Shown here: piece by piece, positions 21,558 to 62,188 of the stretch
Layout: every line of letters starts with the position of its first letter
Position numbering within the stretch: position 1 is the first letter of the stretch
NCBI RefSeq assembly: GCF_030295385.1
Contig: NZ_AP027079.1
Location: 62,001-126,000, forward strand
Reading direction: 5' to 3'
DNA from: Geothrix oryzae
Lineage (GTDB): Bacteria; Acidobacteriota; Holophagae; Holophagales; Holophagaceae
DNA: 64,000 bases
The notes under the pieces: generated by a model
What the model saw: only the letters and a program-made list of their open reading frames with translations
Told to the model about the DNA's origin: nothing
Databases searched by the model: none
Program-made: the position numbers and the translations under genes

Positions 21558-22283
21558 ATGTCAGTTCTCAATAACGTTGCCGCCCTGGGCGCTGCCCGTC
21601 AGATCGGCGTCACCAGCCTCAACCTCCAGAAGACCGTGGAGCGCCTCAGCACCGGCAAGCGCATCAATCGCGCGAACGACGACGCCGCCGGCCTGTCCAT
21701 CGCCAACACCCTGGGCGCCGACGCCCGGGTCGCCACCCAGGCCTCCCGGAACGCCATGGACGGCTACTTCCAGGTCCAGACCGCGGACTCCTACATGGAA
21801 GAGGCCACGGCCCTCGCCACCCGCGCCGCTGAGCTGGAATCGGCCTACAAGGGCGCCGACACCGCCGGCAAGACCGCGATCGACGCCGAGTACAAGACCA
21901 TCGGCGATGCCATCACGAAGTTCGATGGCCAGCGCGCGACCATCACCGCCGATGCCGGCGTCTACGGTTCGGTCACCGCCACCAAGACGGCCGTCACCGC
22001 CCTCGCCGCCTCCGCGGCCAGCGGCAATGCCGCCACCGTCCTGGCGGACATCGCCAAGGAGCGCGGCAACTACGGCGCCGTCATGACGCAGCTGCAGAGC
22101 TACGGCAACTCGCTCGCGACGATCTCCGAGAACAAGACCGCCCAGTACGACCAGATCATGGGTGCGGATATCGGCGCCGAAGTGGTGAAGATGTCCAAGT
22201 TCCAGATCCTGAACCAGGCGGGCATCAGCGCCCTGAGCCAGGCCAATTCGGCCGGCCAGTCCGTCCTCGCGCTCCTTCGCTAG
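21558..22283 (+). CDS. fliC: flagellin, short form
   Basis: At 241 residues this flagellin consists essentially of the conserved D0/D1 ends. The N-terminal half has LNLQKTVERLSTGKRINRANDDAAGLSIA and the C-terminal half ends SALSQANSAGQSVLALLR, with only a short Ala/Thr-rich stretch between (about 85-165). No large outer D2/D3 domains are present. It is secreted by the flagellar type III apparatus and polymerises into the filament. GGAGGA lies five bases before the ATG. The Thr/Ser residues in the middle are plausible O-glycosylation sites for the adjacent transferases. Confidence 0.97.
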   Translation: MSVLNNVAALGAARQIGVTSLNLQKTVERLSTGKRINRANDDAAGLSIANTLGADARVATQASRNAMDGYFQVQTADSYMEEATALATRAAELESAYKGADTAGKTAIDAEYKTIGDAITKFDGQRATITADAGVYGSVTATKTAVTALAASAASGNAATVLADIAKERGNYGAVMTQLQSYGNSLATISENKTAQYDQIMGADIGAEVVKMSKFQILNQAGISALSQANSAGQSVLALLR

Positions 22284-22297
22284 TAGGGATGGCTGAT

Positions 22298-22334
22298 CAT
22301 TCGGGGGGGCAGGTCAAACCTGCCCTCCCGAATG
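22298..22334 (+). terminator. hairpin between fliC and flaG
   Basis: CATTCGGG...GCAGGT pairs with ACCTGCCCTCCCGAATG around a short loop, giving a long stem with one bulged base. There is no T-run, so it may partly terminate the fliC message or stabilise its 3' end rather than fully separate fliC from flaG. Confidence 0.6.
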
Positions 22335-22352
22335 TCAGCTGAGGAGGCTGAA

Positions 22353-22745
22353 ATGGCCGATCTCATCACCCCCACAGGCAGCTTGGCGGCCGGCGTTCAG
22401 GCGGTTTTTTTCAACGCTCCGAAGGCCCAGCCGGTCTCAGACCGACCCGCCCAAGTTGACGAACCCCGGCCCGCACAGCCGGGAACGGGGAACCCAGGTG
22501 CACCCGCGATGACGCTTGATCGGGCCGTGGAGGCCTTGCAGGCGCATGTCCAGCAGTCCTCGTCGGAACTCCGGTTCCTGGTGGACAAGGGCACGGGAAA
22601 AATGTATTTCAAGGTCGTCGACCACTCCACCGGAGAGGTCATCCTTCAGATTCCCTCCGAGGAGGTTCTGGGAGCGGCGAGGAAATTGCGTGAGATGGCC
22701 GACGCCAAGACCGCCGCTGGCATCCTGGTGGACCAGAAGGGCTGA
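22353..22745 (+). CDS. flaG: FlaG-family flagellar protein
   Basis: The ATG at 22353 has GAGGAGG five bases upstream, better than the alternative start seven codons earlier. The 130-residue protein has a disordered Pro-rich N-terminal half and the FlaG core at about 60-130: LRFLVDKGTGKMYFKVVDHSTGEVILQIPSEEVL. FlaG proteins affect filament length in other bacteria. Its place between fliC and fliD is the usual one. Confidence 0.92.
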   Translation: MADLITPTGSLAAGVQAVFFNAPKAQPVSDRPAQVDEPRPAQPGTGNPGAPAMTLDRAVEALQAHVQQSSSELRFLVDKGTGKMYFKVVDHSTGEVILQIPSEEVLGAARKLREMADAKTAAGILVDQKG

Positions 22746-22769
22746 GCCCTGCTGGGAGGGAGGTATTCC

Positions 22770-24230
22770 ATGGCATCATCATCGGTCAGTTTTTCGGGCA
22801 TCTTTTCGGGCGTCCAGACGGATCAGCTGGTGACGGCCATCCTCCAGCAGGAAAGCCTCCCACTGCAGCGCTTGCAGGCTAGGCAGGCGGCCAACACCAA
22901 GCGCACCACTGCGCTGACCACCATGAGCAGCAACCTGGCGGCCCTGGGTTCCAGCCTGGCGGCCCTCAGCGCAACGAGTTTCGATGCCCGGAGCGTCGCG
23001 AGCTCGGATCCCAACGGCACTTATGTTTCGGCGACCGCTTCGGGGGCCGCCGTAGGCAGTTATGACCTCCGGGTCACCCAGGTCGCCACCCGGGCCCGGA
23101 TCTCGCCAGCCCAGGGCCCGGATCTCGGGGGGCCCACCAACACGATGGCGGTCACCAACCCCCAGACCACCGCGATCTTCGCCCCGGGAAGCACGGAGAG
23201 CTTCGGCATCCGGGGGACGGATGGCGTGGTTCACACCTTCTCGCTCACCGATCCGGCCCAGAACAACCTCAATGCCTTGCGGGATGCCATCAACGCCTCC
23301 GGCGCGGGCGTGACCGCCGCGGTGGTCAACACGGGATCGGGCTCGACGCCTTACCAGCTGGTGCTGACGGCCCAGGACACCGGGACGGGCTCCACGCAGG
23401 GGGTGATCACCTTGGCGGACCTGACGGCCGGGGGTTCCACGAACACCATCGGCATCACCGCCTCCGCCGACCCCGTGACGCTGGCGGGCGGACTGCAGTC
23501 GCCCGCGGCGGTGGACGCCCTCTTCACCTTGAACGGCGTGTCGCTCACCCGGAAATCGAATGTGGTGACCGATGCGGTGGACGGGATGACCTTCACCCTC
23601 AAGCAAGGCGGTCAGACGGGCAGCACCACCCTGACGGTGAGTCAGGACAAGTCCGCCATCACGACGGCCATGCAGGATGTGGTGAGCAAGTACAACACCC
23701 TGCTCCAGGCCTACAAGGCGGCCACGGCCGTGACCAAGGACAGTTCCGGCAACAAGACCGCGGGCGTGCTGACGGGGGACGGGCAGACCCGCGCCATCAT
23801 GCAGCAGGTGCGGGCCGCCCTCACGGGGGTCGCCACGGGGCTGCCCGGTGGCGCGACGCTCACGGCACCTTCGACCGTGGGTCTTAAGACTGGAGCCGAC
23901 GGAACCCTCTCTCTCGATGTCACGGCTTTCCAGAAGGCCTTGGACACGGATCCGGCCGCCGTCAAACAGATCTTCACGAATGCGGCTGGTGGCGGCGTGG
24001 CCCAGGTGACCGGGAAGACCATCACCGACATCACGGCCGCCGTCACGGGCAGCCTGGCCCAGGACATGCAGCAGATCACCCTTCAGAACCAATCCCTGAC
24101 CTCCCAGATCAGCACCTGGCAGTCGCGGATGGATCGCCGGAAGGCCGTGCTCACCGCGCAGTTCGCCCGGATGGAGTCGGCGGTGTCGCAGCTTCAGGGG
24201 TCCGCCACCGCGCTTTCCAAGCTGAGTTGA
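22770..24230 (+). CDS. fliD: flagellar filament cap protein FliD (hook-associated protein 2)
   Basis: The 486-residue protein is of usual length. The N-terminal segment (SGVQTDQLVTAILQQESLPLQRLQ) and the C-terminal coiled coil (about 430-486, TLQNQSLTSQISTWQSRMDRRKAVLTAQFARMESAVSQLQ) are typical of FliD. A central domain (about 130-330) carries repeats of the flagellin-hook type. FliD caps the growing filament and folds exported flagellin subunits. It lies 24 bp after flaG and is followed by fliS. Confidence 0.97.
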   Translation: MASSSVSFSGIFSGVQTDQLVTAILQQESLPLQRLQARQAANTKRTTALTTMSSNLAALGSSLAALSATSFDARSVASSDPNGTYVSATASGAAVGSYDLRVTQVATRARISPAQGPDLGGPTNTMAVTNPQTTAIFAPGSTESFGIRGTDGVVHTFSLTDPAQNNLNALRDAINASGAGVTAAVVNTGSGSTPYQLVLTAQDTGTGSTQGVITLADLTAGGSTNTIGITASADPVTLAGGLQSPAAVDALFTLNGVSLTRKSNVVTDAVDGMTFTLKQGGQTGSTTLTVSQDKSAITTAMQDVVSKYNTLLQAYKAATAVTKDSSGNKTAGVLTGDGQTRAIMQQVRAALTGVATGLPGGATLTAPSTVGLKTGADGTLSLDVTAFQKALDTDPAAVKQIFTNAAGGGVAQVTGKTITDITAAVTGSLAQDMQQITLQNQSLTSQISTWQSRMDRRKAVLTAQFARMESAVSQLQGSATALSKLS

Positions 24231-24283
24231 ACTTGAGTTCGTCCGGGCCCGGACCGATGAGAATCTGAAGGAAGGCGTTCCCC

Positions 24284-24712
24284 ATGACTCCTTATAGCCG
24301 CGCCACTGATCAGTACCTTGCCCAGAAGGTCATGGGCGCTTCGCCGGAACAGCTGGTCGCCATGCTGCTCGAAGCCGGGCAGCGGTACCTGCTCAAGACC
24401 GTGCAGGCCATGGGCCGGCGCGATTGCCCGGGCCAGGCCCAGGCCACGGACCGGGTCTTCGCCATCCTCCAGGAGCTGACCCTGCGCCTGAACCGGGAAG
24501 AAGGCGGGGAACTGGCCACCAACCTCCTCCGCACCTATGAATGGTGGGGTCGGGAACTGATGCAGGCGAACATGAAGCGGCAGCCCGAGAGGCTGGAGCG
24601 CATCAGTGAGCAGATGGGCGACCTGAAGCAGACCTGGGAGCAGCTGCATCAGATGAAGGTGGGCGCTGCTCAGGCCCAGACGCCCTTTCTGACCGGGGCC
24701 CTCGCGGGATGA
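24284..24712 (+). CDS. fliS: flagellin export chaperone FliS
   Basis: This 142-residue cytoplasmic helical protein has the family pattern: an N-terminal SPEQLVAMLLEAGQRYLLKTVQAM helix, then a VFAILQELTLRLNREEGGELATNLLRTYEW core. FliS binds the flagellin C-terminus to prevent early assembly. It overlaps the next gene by four bases (ATGA). Confidence 0.95.
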   Translation: MTPYSRATDQYLAQKVMGASPEQLVAMLLEAGQRYLLKTVQAMGRRDCPGQAQATDRVFAILQELTLRLNREEGGELATNLLRTYEWWGRELMQANMKRQPERLERISEQMGDLKQTWEQLHQMKVGAAQAQTPFLTGALAG

Positions 24713-25008
24713 GCGACGCCCTGGTACTTGGGCTGGTGGAGGAGCTGGAGGGCGTGCTCGCCGATCCGGCCTGGGTTGCCGATCCGGAGTTCCTGCTCGG
24801 ATGGAACCAGCGGTTCGCGGAAGCCACGGCCCACGCCGAGCGCGGGTCAGAGTGGCCGGAGATCCTCAAGCGCGCCCATGCGTTGGGCGATCGGGTGCAT
24901 CCGGTCGTCGACCGGTTGACCAAGGACATGGATGCGATCCGGCGCGAGCTCACGGAGCAGGAGCGCGGCCAGCGGGCGCTCAAGGGATACGGCGCCAGCG
25001 CCCGCTAA
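24709..25008 (+). CDS. FliT-like small helical protein
   Basis: This 99-residue, wholly helical and charged protein is translationally coupled to fliS (ATGA overlap). FliT, the chaperone of the cap protein FliD, usually lies at this spot and has this size, and the C-terminal DRLTKDMDAIRRELTEQERGQRALKGY helix resembles it. Sequence similarity is too weak for a firm name. The gene ends five bases before the convergent upp gene. Confidence 0.75.
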   Translation: MSDALVLGLVEELEGVLADPAWVADPEFLLGWNQRFAEATAHAERGSEWPEILKRAHALGDRVHPVVDRLTKDMDAIRRELTEQERGQRALKGYGASAR

Positions 25009-25013
25009 GGGCC

Positions 25014-25640
25014 CTACGCCGTTCCGAACAGCCGGTCGCCTGCATCGCCCAGGCCGGGGAGGATGTAGCCCTTGTCGTTGAGCTGGCGGTCCACGGCGCC
25101 CACGACGATCTTCAGGTCGGGATGGTCCGCGTGCAGGCGCTCGAGACCCTCGGGGGCGGCGAGCAGCGCGACGAGGGTGAGGTTCACCGCGCCGGCGCTC
25201 TTGAGCTGCCGTACGGCTTCTGAGGCGCTGCCGCCCGTGGCGAGCATGGGGTCGAGCACGAAGACGGGGCGCGCCTCGAGCATCGGCGGGAAGTTCCGGT
25301 AGTAGGGCACGGGCACCAGGGAATCGTGATCGCGGTATAGGCCTAGGTGGCCGACCTTGGCCGTCGGGAGCAGCTGCAGGAAGGACGGCAGCAGGCCGAG
25401 CCCCGCGCGCAGCACGGGAACCAGCACCAGGTCCAGTGACTTCAGGCGGAGCGTGGTGGTGCGCTCCAGCGGCGTTTCCACGACCACGGATTCGACGGGA
25501 AGGTCCCGCGTCGATTCGACCGCGAGGATCAGGCCGACCTCTTCGATCAGCGCGCGGAAGAGGCTCCCGGGCGTCTTGCGATCACGAATGAGAGAGAGCT
25601 TGTGGTGGACGAGGGGGTGGTCAAGCACATGGATCGTCAT
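25014..25640 (-). CDS. upp: uracil phosphoribosyltransferase
   Basis: The enzyme salvages uracil: uracil plus PRPP gives UMP. The 208-residue length is exactly that of the family. It has the N-terminal DHPLVHHKLSLIRDRKTP, the VLRAGLGLLPSF segment, the PRPP-binding DPMLATGGSA, and the C-terminal KGYILPGLGDAGDRLFGTA uracil-binding region. The start chosen (MTIHVLDHP) matches the family N-terminus. It is transcribed towards the flagellar genes and appears monocistronic. Confidence 0.97.
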   Translation of the reverse strand: MTIHVLDHPLVHHKLSLIRDRKTPGSLFRALIEEVGLILAVESTRDLPVESVVVETPLERTTTLRLKSLDLVLVPVLRAGLGLLPSFLQLLPTAKVGHLGLYRDHDSLVPVPYYRNFPPMLEARPVFVLDPMLATGGSASEAVRQLKSAGAVNLTLVALLAAPEGLERLHADHPDLKIVVGAVDRQLNDKGYILPGLGDAGDRLFGTA

Positions 25641-25963
25641 GGGTGCCTCGGCGATTTCCGGCGGGGTTCCACGGGCCGCATTCACGGCGCCGCAGGGGTG
25701 ATGGATGGCGCGAGTTGAAGCCTAACAGGAGGAGCCTGCGACCCGCGGCACGAAGCGGAACCACTCGCCCGCGGTGCGTTCCGGCGGTTTCCGGCCGGGG
25801 TCGGGACGAGGCTGGGGCGAGGTGATCGCGAGCCGCGAAGCGGGCGATGGTGCGGGTTTCAAAGTGTCAGTGCAAACCCGCGCATCGACGCGGCGTTGCT
25901 GGATCCAGCCGTGATCGTGCGGCTCGGATGGTGGAGAAGGCGGTTCGCCCGAGGAGGAAACGA
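25641..25963 (+). other. 323-bp stretch without a recognisable gene
   Basis: This part of the gap between upp and the TrpC-like gene is GC-rich like the rest. It holds no convincing ORF, tRNA, riboswitch or repeat that I can see. The upp promoter should lie in its left part. Confidence 0.5.
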
Positions 25964-26053
25964 ATGACCGTGGAGGGGGAGGTAGCGTCAAAAAAAATGA
26001 AGATTTTTGAGATTTCTCTGTTGACCTCATCCAGATCGCTGGTTTTATGTTGA
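25964..26053 (+). CDS. possible 29-codon leader ORF
   Basis: ATG at 25964 is preceded by GAGGAGG with a six-base spacer, one of the strongest ribosome binding sites in the window. The frame gives MTVEGEVASKKMKIFEIS and ends CL at TGA 26051-26053. It contains no tryptophan codon, so it is not a classical trp leader. It overlaps a promoter-like element at 26021-26051, so either the ORF or the promoter may be fortuitous. It could act as a leader peptide of the TrpC-like/H1 gene. Confidence 0.3.
   Translation: MTVEGEVASKKMKIFEISLLTSSRSLVLC
26021..26051 (+). promoter_or_regulatory. sigma-70-like promoter of the TrpC-like/H1-tail gene
   Basis: TTGACC is followed after 17-19 bases by TTTATG/TATGTT, set in an AT-rich island (about 25990-26060) that stands out from the GC-rich surroundings. 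Transcription would begin near 26058, about 70 bases before the ATG at 26127. Confidence 0.6.
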
Positions 26054-26126
26054 ATCAGAGGAAAAACGACCGATCATCTTCCCCATAGGGCCAACAGCGA
26101 GGTATCTGAGATTTGGAGCGTGGGAA

Positions 26127-27581
26127 ATGCTAAAGAAAGTCGCCATCTTCAAGGCCCTGGATGTGGAAATCAAGAAGCAGCGGGGCCCTGTGGCGGTGAA
26201 AGATGCCTACAAAGGTCATCATTCGTTGAAGGAAGAGCTTAGCCAGCCTGGAATCACCATCTTAGGTGAGGTAGCCGGGGGCGACCCCGGCCGCGGGCAG
26301 GTCCGGGAGGCCTACAAGGCCTCCACCCACGCCAAGAGCCTGGTCGAAAACGGGGCCCGGGCCCTGTCCGTAGCCACGGACAAGTTCCTCTACTACGGCG
26401 AGGATAAGCACCTCTCCGAAGTCCGGGGCCAGGTGAAGGTGCCCCTGATCCGCCGCGAGTTCATCTTCGAGGAGTACCAGGTCGAGGAGAGCAAGATCCT
26501 CGGGGCGGACGCCATCTTCCTGATGCCGGCCCTGCTGAGCGACGAGCGCCTCCAGGTGCTCCTGAAGTTCGCCACCAGCAAGGGTCTCGATGTCGTGGTC
26601 GAGGTGACCTCGGAGGCCGAGCTGCAGCGCGCCGTGGAAGCGGGCGCCGACATCATCTGCGCCGTGGGAAGGAACCTCGATACCTGGGCCGCCTCCTGGG
26701 ATCAGGCCGTGGCGCTGGTCAAGAAGGTGCCCAAGAGCTGCCTGAAGCTGGTCGAGGGCGGCATCCACCGGTTGGAGCAGATCAAGCAGATGGAGGCCCT
26801 GGGCGTCCATGGCCTGGTCATCGGCGATGCCCTTCTCGACGACTACTATCCCGGCAAGCGCCTGGCCCAGATCCTGGCCGGCGTGGAGCCCCCGAAAAAA
26901 GCCGCGAAGCCCAAGGGCAAGACCGGCTCTGCCGCTGAGGCGGCGCAAGCCCCCACGGCTGCATCTGCAGCCAAGGAACGCCCATCCACCCCGCGGAAAG
27001 ATGCGCCCGCACCTGGCATGAAAGATGCTAAGGACAAACCATCTTTCCGTACGACCCCTTCCAACCTCGCCCAAAAGGGCGCAAAGGAGCCACCCATGGC
27101 CGAACTGACCAACCTGGTCGCCCCCACCGAACCCGTCGCCGCCAAGAAGCCGGCGAAGAAGGCTGCCCCCAAGAAGAAGGCCGCCGCCAAGAAGCCCGCC
27201 GCGAAGAAGGCCGCGCCGAAGAAGGCCGCCGCCAAGAAGCCGGCTGCCAAGAAGGCCGTGAAGAAGGCCGCGCCGAAGAAGGCCGCCGCCAAGAAGCCGG
27301 CTGCCAAGAAGGCCGTGAAGAAGGCCGCGCCGAAGAAGGCCGCCGCGAAGAAGGCTGCGCCGAAGAAGGCCGCCGCGAAGAAGGCCGCGCCGAAGAAGGC
27401 CGCTGCCAAGAAGACCGTGAAGAAGGCCGCGCCGAAGAAGGCCGCTGCCAAGAAGCCGGCCGCGAAGAAGGTCGTGAAGAAGGCCGTGAAGAAGGCCGCG
27501 CCGAAGAAGGCCGCCGCCAAGAAGCCGGCCGCCAAGAAGGTCGTGAAGAAGGCTGCGCCGAAGAAGGCCGCCAAGAAGTAG
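26127..27581 (+). CDS. TrpC-like TIM barrel fused to a histone-H1-like basic tail
   Basis: This 484-residue protein has three parts. Residues 1-252 resemble indole-3-glycerol-phosphate synthase (TrpC): ITILGEVAGGDPGRG, LSVATDKFLYYG, PLIRREFIFEEYQ, VVVEVTSEAELQRA, VEGGIHRLEQI. By alignment from memory, the catalytic lysine of the 'EIKRASPS' loop is Ala50, the general-acid lysine of 'CKDF' is Arg110, and the 'NNR' asparagine is Gly181; Glu48, Glu159 and Glu210 remain. I therefore doubt that it makes indoleglycerol phosphate. Residues 253-323 are a disordered Ala/Pro/Lys linker. Residues 324-484 are a Lys/Ala/Pro tail with over 30 KK pairs, like the C-terminal tails of histone H1 and bacterial AlgP/HctB-type proteins, and should bind DNA or RNA. 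No trp genes are nearby. Fusion and function are inference beyond the motifs. Confidence 0.9.
   Translation: MLKKVAIFKALDVEIKKQRGPVAVKDAYKGHHSLKEELSQPGITILGEVAGGDPGRGQVREAYKASTHAKSLVENGARALSVATDKFLYYGEDKHLSEVRGQVKVPLIRREFIFEEYQVEESKILGADAIFLMPALLSDERLQVLLKFATSKGLDVVVEVTSEAELQRAVEAGADIICAVGRNLDTWAASWDQAVALVKKVPKSCLKLVEGGIHRLEQIKQMEALGVHGLVIGDALLDDYYPGKRLAQILAGVEPPKKAAKPKGKTGSAAEAAQAPTAASAAKERPSTPRKDAPAPGMKDAKDKPSFRTTPSNLAQKGAKEPPMAELTNLVAPTEPVAAKKPAKKAAPKKKAAAKKPAAKKAAPKKAAAKKPAAKKAVKKAAPKKAAAKKPAAKKAVKKAAPKKAAAKKAAPKKAAAKKAAPKKAAAKKTVKKAAPKKAAAKKPAAKKVVKKAVKKAAPKKAAAKKPAAKKVVKKAAPKKAAKK
27096..27581 (+). CDS. candidate internal in-frame start: stand-alone H1-like basic protein
   Basis: ATG at 27096 is codon 324 of the larger gene. 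AAAGGAG lies six bases upstream, a near-ideal ribosome binding site in a spot where chance occurrence is notable. Translation from here would give a 161-residue protein (MAELTNLVAPTEPVAAKK...) that is almost wholly AAKKPAAKK/AAPKK repeats. The codons just upstream are richer in A/T at third positions than the rest, as if they had once been intergenic. The smaller product would act as an abundant nucleoid or RNA-binding protein. Which product is made is not known. Confidence 0.45.
   Translation: MAELTNLVAPTEPVAAKKPAKKAAPKKKAAAKKPAAKKAAPKKAAAKKPAAKKAVKKAAPKKAAAKKPAAKKAVKKAAPKKAAAKKAAPKKAAAKKAAPKKAAAKKTVKKAAPKKAAAKKPAAKKVVKKAVKKAAPKKAAAKKPAAKKVVKKAAPKKAAKK
27140..27579 (+). repeat. internally repetitive DNA coding KKAAPKK/AAKKPAAKK units
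   Basis: About 440 bases consist of near-identical units such as AAGAAGGCCGCGCCGAAG and AAGAAGCCGGCTGCCAAG in changing order. Such DNA is prone to unequal recombination and to assembly errors, so the tail length may vary between strains. Confidence 0.85.
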
Positions 27582-27609
27582 GGCCAATCGGCTCATCCAA
27601 CCTGGCTAA

Positions 27610-28935
<1,326 letters not shown>

Positions 28936-61183: not shown

Positions 61184-62188
61184 ATGATCCGTGCCTTCCC
61201 GGCCCTTCCCTGGGTGGCAGGGAGCCCGCGCAGGCGGGCGCCGCGTCTCGTCGCGGGTCTGCTGCTCGCCGCATCCCTCGGCTGCGGGGGAGGCGGTGGA
61301 GGAGGCACTGGGACGGCTTCGGCGCCGCCTCCCCTCCCTCCGCCCACCTACGACCTGGTGTTCGACGGGCGGAACGGGGATGGGTCCCACCTGCTCTACC
61401 AGGTCCGGCCCGAGGGTGGCGCCCCCCAGGTGCTGGGCCTGGGGTACGGCGGCACGCGCCCCCACGCCCGCCCCGATGGCCGGGCCCTGGTGTACGCCAG
61501 CCTCCCCACGGACCTGGTTCCCGCCCAGCTCATGCTCGTGGACGACTTGACCCAGCCGGCGATCTGCCTCTCCACGGAAGCGGGCGTGGCCGAGCGGGAG
61601 GTGGTCTGGGCCCCGGATGGCCTGCGCCTCGCCTTCCACTCGCAGCTGGAGGATCCGGCCGGCGACATCTTCACGGCGGATCTGCGGGGCCGGAGCCTGG
61701 AGAACCGGCGCAACCTCACGCCGCGCCAGGCCGGCGACCCGATGATTTCGCCCGATGTCACGCCCGCCTGGTCGCCGGACGGCACGCGCCTCGCGTTCGC
61801 CTCGTACCGCCAGGGCAGCCCGGCCCTGTGGCTGATGAACGCCGACGGCAGCGGGGCCCGTCAGCTGACGCCCACCAGCAGCGTGTCGGGCGACTACTTC
61901 CCCACCTGGTCGCCGGATGGCCGCTGGATCGCCTTCCAGCGCCTCACGAGCGAGAGCGTCCAGATCGGCATCCTCCCGGCCGCGGGCGGAACGCCCACCT
62001 TCCTGCCCTTTGCGGGCAAGGCCTACGCGCCGGCCTGGTCCCCCGATGGTGGCTGGATCGCCTTCAGCGGCCTGGTGGACGGGGAGTACGACATCCACCT
62101 CCAGACGCCGGACGGCCGTGGCCTGCGGCGCATCCCGCGGGCCGGCGAGGACCGGGGCCCCAGCTGGATCCGGCGCGCGGACCCGTGA
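61184..62188 (+). CDS. TolB-like beta-propeller lipoprotein
   Basis: The product (334 residues from 61184) has a lipoprotein signal (RLVAGLLLAASLGC) followed by a glycine run. Repeated PD40/TolB motifs (VVWAPDGLRLAFHSQ, PAWSPDGTRLAFASYRQ, PTWSPDGRWIAFQRL, PAWSPDGGWIAFSGL) form a beta propeller. Start choice: ATG 61118 overlaps the S41 stop (ATGA) and would add 22 residues; ATG 61184 with AGGCGAG upstream gives a more normal signal peptide. It lies between two S41 peptidases and may present substrates or partners. Confidence 0.85.
   Translation: MIRAFPALPWVAGSPRRRAPRLVAGLLLAASLGCGGGGGGGTGTASAPPPLPPPTYDLVFDGRNGDGSHLLYQVRPEGGAPQVLGLGYGGTRPHARPDGRALVYASLPTDLVPAQLMLVDDLTQPAICLSTEAGVAEREVVWAPDGLRLAFHSQLEDPAGDIFTADLRGRSLENRRNLTPRQAGDPMISPDVTPAWSPDGTRLAFASYRQGSPALWLMNADGSGARQLTPTSSVSGDYFPTWSPDGRWIAFQRLTSESVQIGILPAAGGTPTFLPFAGKAYAPAWSPDGGWIAFSGLVDGEYDIHLQTPDGRGLRRIPRAGEDRGPSWIRRADP

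Follow-up and report, generated by a model that had tools for sequence, protein, structure and literature searches.

A TrpC-type barrel with replaced catalytic residues joined to a histone H1-like tail, and a predicted nested gene for the tail alone, in Holophagaceae

Two known arrangements appear closest to the gene described here: an N-terminal domain that carries a KPAA-type tail, as in PhaF, whose N-terminal domain is a phasin, and a single gene that yields a protein together with its own C-terminal part, as with SpaO, whose short form arises from an internal start. According to PMC9239181, PhaF probably links granules to the nucleoid, and AlgP is described as having a helical N-terminal domain and a tail that is required for granule spacing, with KPAA tail fragments that bind DNA. 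Another DNA-binding protein built of lysine repeats is Hc2, with 165–237 aa and variation in size (PMC2848022). SpaO is reported to occur both at full length and as a shorter C-terminal version (PMC13059759), and Cas11b is described as a nested in-frame isoform (PMC11899642).

Here we analyze a gene within a 64,000-nucleotide stretch of the genome of Geothrix oryzae (the window; positions 62,001 to 126,000 of contig NZ_AP027079.1), which a sequence-only reading had described as a fusion protein.

Gene architecture, distribution and neighbourhood

The open reading frame at 26127–27581 on the forward strand comprises 484 codons and, as the sequence-only reading had recognized, joins in a single frame a TIM barrel of the indoleglycerol-phosphate synthase (IGPS, TrpC) type to a tail of lysine, alanine and proline. 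The barrel (residues 1–254, 26127..26888, with replaced catalytic lysines) is delineated by Pfam, an AlphaFold2 model, a structure match and residue comparison. Its residues 10–239 match the Pfam IGPS family (PF00218) with 164.5 bits against a cut-off of 27, and it falls below the NCBIfam equivalog cut-off for TrpC, the best-scoring model giving 178.3 bits against 260. AlphaFold2, with a 24-sequence alignment, returned a TIM barrel with a mean pLDDT of 85.4 and a pTM of 0.83, residues 1–23 and 259–262 being the low-confidence parts, and among solved structures those of IGPS enzymes match it best (3t55: Z 32.6, rmsd 2.3 over 249 residues). Lysine makes up 39%, alanine 39% and proline 11% of the last 161 residues, whose net charge is about +61; the protein contains 35 KK pairs, in agreement with the more than 30 claimed before, and 31 of them lie from residue 324 onward. 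The DNA coding for the tail is a tandem repeat with periods of 15, 30 and 57 (27137..27572, forward strand; Tandem Repeats Finder). Tail residues 338–482 match the histone H1-like HC2 family (PF07382) with 31.8 bits, below the cut-off of 40, and in a genome-wide HC2 search the tail reaches 38.6 bits, still short of the Pfam gathering score of 40.

Within the window's bacterial family, IGPS matches were found in 57 of 61 genomes, and 50 of the 61, the window's own included, carry such a barrel, at 52 loci that are related by descent, so that counts across them are not independent. In a set of 48 loci, which omits two whose contigs end before the tail (L068, L083) and two whose open frames are long, at 515 and 484 codons (L039, L061), a single reading frame covers barrel and tail without exception, and an eno-like gene comes next in all 37 loci that reach past the barrel-tail gene. 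Because of these two observations the fusion is not an artefact; stop-loss and assembly error are ruled out by the 48 in-frame loci, and nowhere among them do barrel and tail form the two separate genes that the sequence-only reading had set against its own proposal. No barrel match of the fusion type was obtained in the other 11 family genomes. The eno gene was sought in nine of these (all except G030 and G034): in G054, G059, G049, G007 and G029 the sequence begins 121–387 bases before eno, inside the KK-coding tail, so that the missing gene is explained by an assembly break at the repeat, presumably at contig ends, and in the other four eno gave no match (G050, G021, G027) or only a 61% one (G057).

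When 396 genomes of the phylum were searched with the barrel alignment, the matches listed included 35 of 39 family genomes, whose best matches score at least 453 bits except for one contig-end fragment (180 bits); the best listed match outside the family, at 164.5 bits, is in the range of ordinary TrpC. Two peptide patterns, applied to a genome collection of 84,980 species, retrieved 54 loci titled Geothrix, Holophagaceae, Holophagales or Acidobacteria/Acidobacteriota, plus, within that number, one labelled Deltaproteobacteria (L144) that is apparently family member G024. Among the matches listed and by these two patterns, the barrel-tail gene is found only in the window's bacterial family. 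Plasmid records yielded 73 matches, none covering more than 80% of the query; four of the five listed are annotated as TrpC and one has no listed feature. No paper on the barrel-tail protein was found among the literature matches listed, in a coverage mostly outside subscription journals.

The neighbouring genes, which we take by name to be enolase, upp, ftsB, dapF, parA, flagellin, FliD and FliS, form a partly conserved surrounding. The eno-like gene lies downstream on the same strand (27655..28935), followed in many loci by ftsB-, dapF- and parA-like genes. A divergent upp-like gene lies upstream (25014..25685, reverse strand) and is present in 43 of the 50 loci that reach that far; this neighbour had no match in L042, L065, L071, L083 or three reduced genomes. 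A GC-rich inverted repeat without a T run occupies 27614–27639, between the barrel-tail gene and eno, and similar inverted repeats were seen by eye upstream of eno in L148–L150. Beyond upp, the flagellin-, FliD- and FliS-like genes (21558–25008) vary strongly among relatives of the genus, with about 36–66% identity or no match, apart from the near-identical L055; the adjoining barrel and eno are at least 85% identical.

Barrel residues and the relation to TrpC

Positions 50, 110 and 180 of the barrel correspond to the catalytic lysine of the EIK motif, the lysine of the CKDF-type motif and the asparagine of the NxR motif of IGPS. They are lysine, lysine and asparagine in all 31 true TrpC sequences of the family and are replaced in all 47 relatives of the barrel (a comparison that omits L082, whose reading frame is broken in the N-terminal part), by alanine or serine at 50, by arginine (40), histidine (5) or glutamine (2) at 110, and by valine or leucine at 180. 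The loss of the catalytic lysines, which had been proposed from the single sequence, is hence fixed among the relatives, and the barrel probably lacks IGPS activity. The window barrel has Ala50, Arg110, Val180 and Gly181; the sequence-only reading had named Ala50, Arg110 and Gly181 as the changed residues, and these are as given, although the asparagine aligns with Val180 and Gly181 is the neighbouring position. Its three retained glutamates, Glu48, Glu159 and Glu210, are indeed present in the window, but only the first and the last are universal, residue 159 being glutamate in 45 relatives and glutamine in two. Invariant in all 47 are E48, R182, E210, G233 and D234, and G212 is kept in 44. 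We assume that R182, G212 and G233 are phosphate-side pocket positions of IGPS, and since part of this pocket is kept, it is possible that the barrel holds a phosphorylated ligand, as the sequence-only reading had suggested.

Barrel and TrpC are distinct paralogues of unequal conservation. The window's own genome contains a separate trpC with both lysines (L001), the complete gene that the sequence-only reading had proposed to look for, and the barrel is only about 24% identical to the TrpC of its own family. FastTree separated 47 paralogues and 31 TrpC (78 sequences, all from within the family, with no outgroup from beyond it) into two clades with a support of 0.87 and a stem of 1.6. The barrel has a dN/dS of 0.08 within the window's genus. 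In every one of the 276 pairs among the 24 genomes that have both, pairs that share ancestry and are not independent, it is better conserved than TrpC, with a mean similarity of 85% against 68%.

A TrpA search in ten genomes gave no match in five, namely G012, G016 and three reduced genomes (AT-rich, 0.9–1.2 Mb, one only 84% complete), and in each of these five the single IGPS-type match is the barrel-tail gene. This retention where TrpA is unmatched argues that the barrel is kept for a role other than tryptophan synthesis. In the window's own genome, no match to PRAI (TrpF) was obtained at E 0.001, though TrpA and TrpC were found; about 1.8 kb separates these two genes (G000:C1:1679097-1682290, outside the window), so that TrpF may be divergent or fused.

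A conserved internal start and the predicted free tail

Between barrel and tail lies a variable linker (residues 259–309, 26901..27053, forward strand), followed by codons 310–323 (27054..27095), which we regard as an internal translation-initiation region on account of their synonymous constraint. This region ends in a conserved Shine-Dalgarno sequence AAGGAG (27084..27089), 6 nt before an in-frame ATG at 27096, the whole arrangement occupying 27084–27098. When AAGGAG was sought no more than 14 bases from a start codon, 47 of 48 loci had it, all 47 at an identical distance, with ATG in 46 and GTG in one (L064); the remaining locus, L070, is complete and has neither the internal Shine-Dalgarno nor the start. 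The mean anti-Shine-Dalgarno pairing energy is −8.0 at the internal site, −7.4 at the main start and −2.9 at other in-frame ATGs, of which 3.7% (n = 135) pair as strongly as the internal site. The exact motif occurs once in the window's own genome; with up to two mismatches it occurs at 35 genome sites, compared with 18 for the reversed pattern.

Synonymous sites are nearly silent at this position. Over 46 loci (L082 and, for want of an internal start, L070 being omitted), synonymous differences in the nine codons preceding the internal ATG amount to 0.15 of the number expected, while the lowest value among 247 nine-codon segments of the barrel is 0.68. Within the genus, 25 loci from 24 genomes (two of the loci being from G060) have no synonymous difference in codons 310–323 over 3,224 pair-sites, against 0.42 differences per site in the barrel and 0.26 in the remaining linker of the same loci. 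The three AT-rich reduced genomes likewise have none in the 14 codons, compared with a barrel pS of 0.65, and two other genera have 14-codon pS values of 0.13 and 0.12 against 0.32 and 0.53 for their barrels, a weaker constraint. Such silence is unexplained by selection on amino acids and is explained by a translation start, although it could in principle serve another nucleic-acid function.

Other roles for the linker and the start region were considered. Two small hairpins beside the internal Shine-Dalgarno are predicted in most of 14 loci, whereas the RNAalifold consensus of 32 sequences retains the first alone, with columns 25–28 paired to 33–36, that is, four pairs with hardly any covariation; in the window this possible, unproven hairpin is GCCC-AAAA-GGGC (27069..27080, forward strand), upstream of the Shine-Dalgarno, and many relatives have a GNRA-type loop there. 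Folding energy near the site is not stronger than under synonymous randomisation at the 10% level in 12 of the 14 loci, only L069 (0.007) and L071 (0.075) falling below it, and Rfam gave no match around the internal start at the gathering threshold. As energies are ordinary, covariation is scarce and the second hairpin pairs in differing registers, an RNA switch is not claimed. Programmed frameshifting, which a Shine-Dalgarno plus structure could serve, was rejected since inspection by eye showed no slippery site and the tail is read in frame 0, and a promoter inside the linker was likewise set aside, the consensus scan of 25900–27750 having returned neither promoter nor terminator.

The linker, taken from residue 256 to the internal start, spans 49–75 codons in 11 different lengths among 46 loci and evolves rapidly (dN/dS 0.56 against 0.08 for the barrel within the genus), and its third-position GC in the window (26901–27095) is 0.62, compared with 0.87 and 0.95 for barrel and tail, respectively. 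In-frame stops are absent from all 46 linkers; each of the other two forward frames has stops in 35, and the three reverse frames in 21, 11 and 34. Because frame 0 is open throughout and the other frames are stopped, the long form appears to be under selection too.

The nested in-frame gene predicted from the internal ATG, composition and HC2 similarity (27096..27581, forward strand) would encode a free H1-like protein of 161 aa. In the 34 loci that have an internal start and a complete tail (among them L056, with an unread stretch in the tail), the predicted product has 29–211 aa and a charge of +17 to +76. The reduced genomes (L067, L069, L074) have only 29–33 aa after the internal start, yet the start is unchanged. 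In L070 and its congener L064 (genus g9) the tail is less lysine-dense and made of other repeats with acidic residues; together with the missing internal start of L070, this indicates that the nested gene can be lost. The tail of the barrel-tail gene is the sole HC2 match in the window's own genome, which speaks against a separate H1-like gene there; that genome also has five HU/IHF-type matches. Across eight genomes the HC2 gathering score is passed in two, both times through the tail of the barrel-tail gene, the relative G005 reaching 69.5 bits; two further weak matches (25.4 and 23 bits) lie elsewhere in G010 and one (12.2 bits) in G005. G009, G018 and the three reduced genomes have no HC2 match at all; there the barrel-tail gene's own tail, short or altered, also goes unmatched, so the HC2 model can miss such tails.

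Given the conserved in-frame start, the tail is very likely also produced free, and the description of a fusion protein, correct in that the fusion is real, overlooked the start at 27084–27098 and captured half of the output of the gene. The earlier proposal of a metabolite-sensing protein carried to DNA or RNA by its tail is supported in part, its sensing and binding roles being conjectural. Judging from sequence conservation, the gene very likely has two products, the barrel-linker-tail protein and the H1-like tail alone.

A proposed mechanism, its alternatives and known systems

We propose, with a probability of roughly two in three, that the gene has two products, that the barrel is an inactive IGPS serving as a ligand-binding or docking head which the H1-like tail parks on a polyanion, and that the free tail packs. 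Ribosomes starting at 26127 would make the 484-residue protein of barrel, flexible linker and H1-like tail, and those starting at the internal AAGGAG/ATG (27096) would make the 161-residue tail. In both forms the tail would bind DNA, or RNA or polyphosphate, through its charge; the free tail would pack or coat, and the long form would park its barrel there as a tether, the barrel having kept part of its old pocket and acting as a head that binds a ligand or docks a protein.

Other readings differ in what they make of the internal site or of the barrel. Shine-Dalgarno-like sites within genes can slow ribosomes, and the internal AAGGAG, about 65 codons past the end of the barrel, might mark a programmed pause giving the barrel time to fold ahead of tail synthesis, the full-length fusion being the only product. 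A pause needs no start codon, however, and 47 of 48 loci retain ATG or GTG at an unchanged distance, with the conserved stretch continuing towards it, which makes this explanation improbable. We give about as little credit to the converse, that the H1-like gene is real and only the separate halves matter, the fusion being a lost-stop by-product whose tail is cut off by proteolysis. The fast-evolving linker and its lower third-position GC would fit such a history, but if the fusion were harmful or neutral, at least one lineage should have broken it, and none of the 46 linkers has an in-frame stop where 35 have them in both other forward frames.

As for the barrel, its invariant residues (E48, R182, E210, G233, D234) and an evolution slower than that of TrpC, at a dN/dS of 0.08, would also suit an active enzyme with a new chemistry that the tail localises, rather than a binding head. 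This is a possibility to be entertained, though an unlikely one, as the variation at position 110 and the glutamine at 159 in two relatives are unusual for catalytic residues and there is no candidate substrate. That the barrel is simply TrpC and still makes indole-3-glycerol phosphate has the fold and a Pfam IGPS score over the cut-off in its favour and is scarcely credible in view of the loss of both lysines and the asparagine in all 47 relatives, the 178.3 bits where NCBIfam sets 260, and the persistence of the gene where TrpA is unmatched. Returning to the two-product proposal with its binding or docking head, a tentative and rather doubtful extension is that the retired enzyme senses a ligand or docks a partner on the chromosome, and that a ratio of free tail to barrel-tail protein set by translation couples metabolism, represented by the adjoining enolase, to nucleoid packing.

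The locus presents a family-wide case of a biosynthetic enzyme that has lost its catalytic residues, evolves under tighter constraint than the functional paralogue and carries a chromatin-like tail. A plain listing of open reading frames shows a single protein here, nested gene included; should the cell produce both forms, these bacteria have an H1-like protein that has stayed hidden because its start lies inside another gene. Synonymous silence before an in-frame ATG could be used as a signature to find other nested DNA-binding proteins.

Compared with IGPS/TrpC (PF00218), the barrel keeps the TIM-barrel fold, R182, F112, G233, E48, E210 and, in 45 of 47 relatives, E159; unlike TrpC, it is without Lys50, Lys110 and Asn180, carries a tail and is retained without a TrpA match. 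The tail shares with Hc2/HctB (PF07382) its short lysine-rich repeats, variation in size and a match to the HC2 profile, but in the window it scores under the Pfam cut-off, and its frame is nested in a larger gene. With SpaO and its short form, and with Cas11, the gene would have in common that one gene gives a full-length protein and its own C-terminal part, which is a prediction here; the proteins are unrelated, and the short form in this case would be H1-like. The head of AlgP and PhaF from Pseudomonas is not an IGPS barrel, and a nested start goes unmentioned for them in the passages of PMC9239181 considered, but both combine an N-terminal domain with a KPAA-type disordered tail, the tail encoded in the window having been compared by eye with the repeats described there, and they appear to be the nearest architecture for which data exist.
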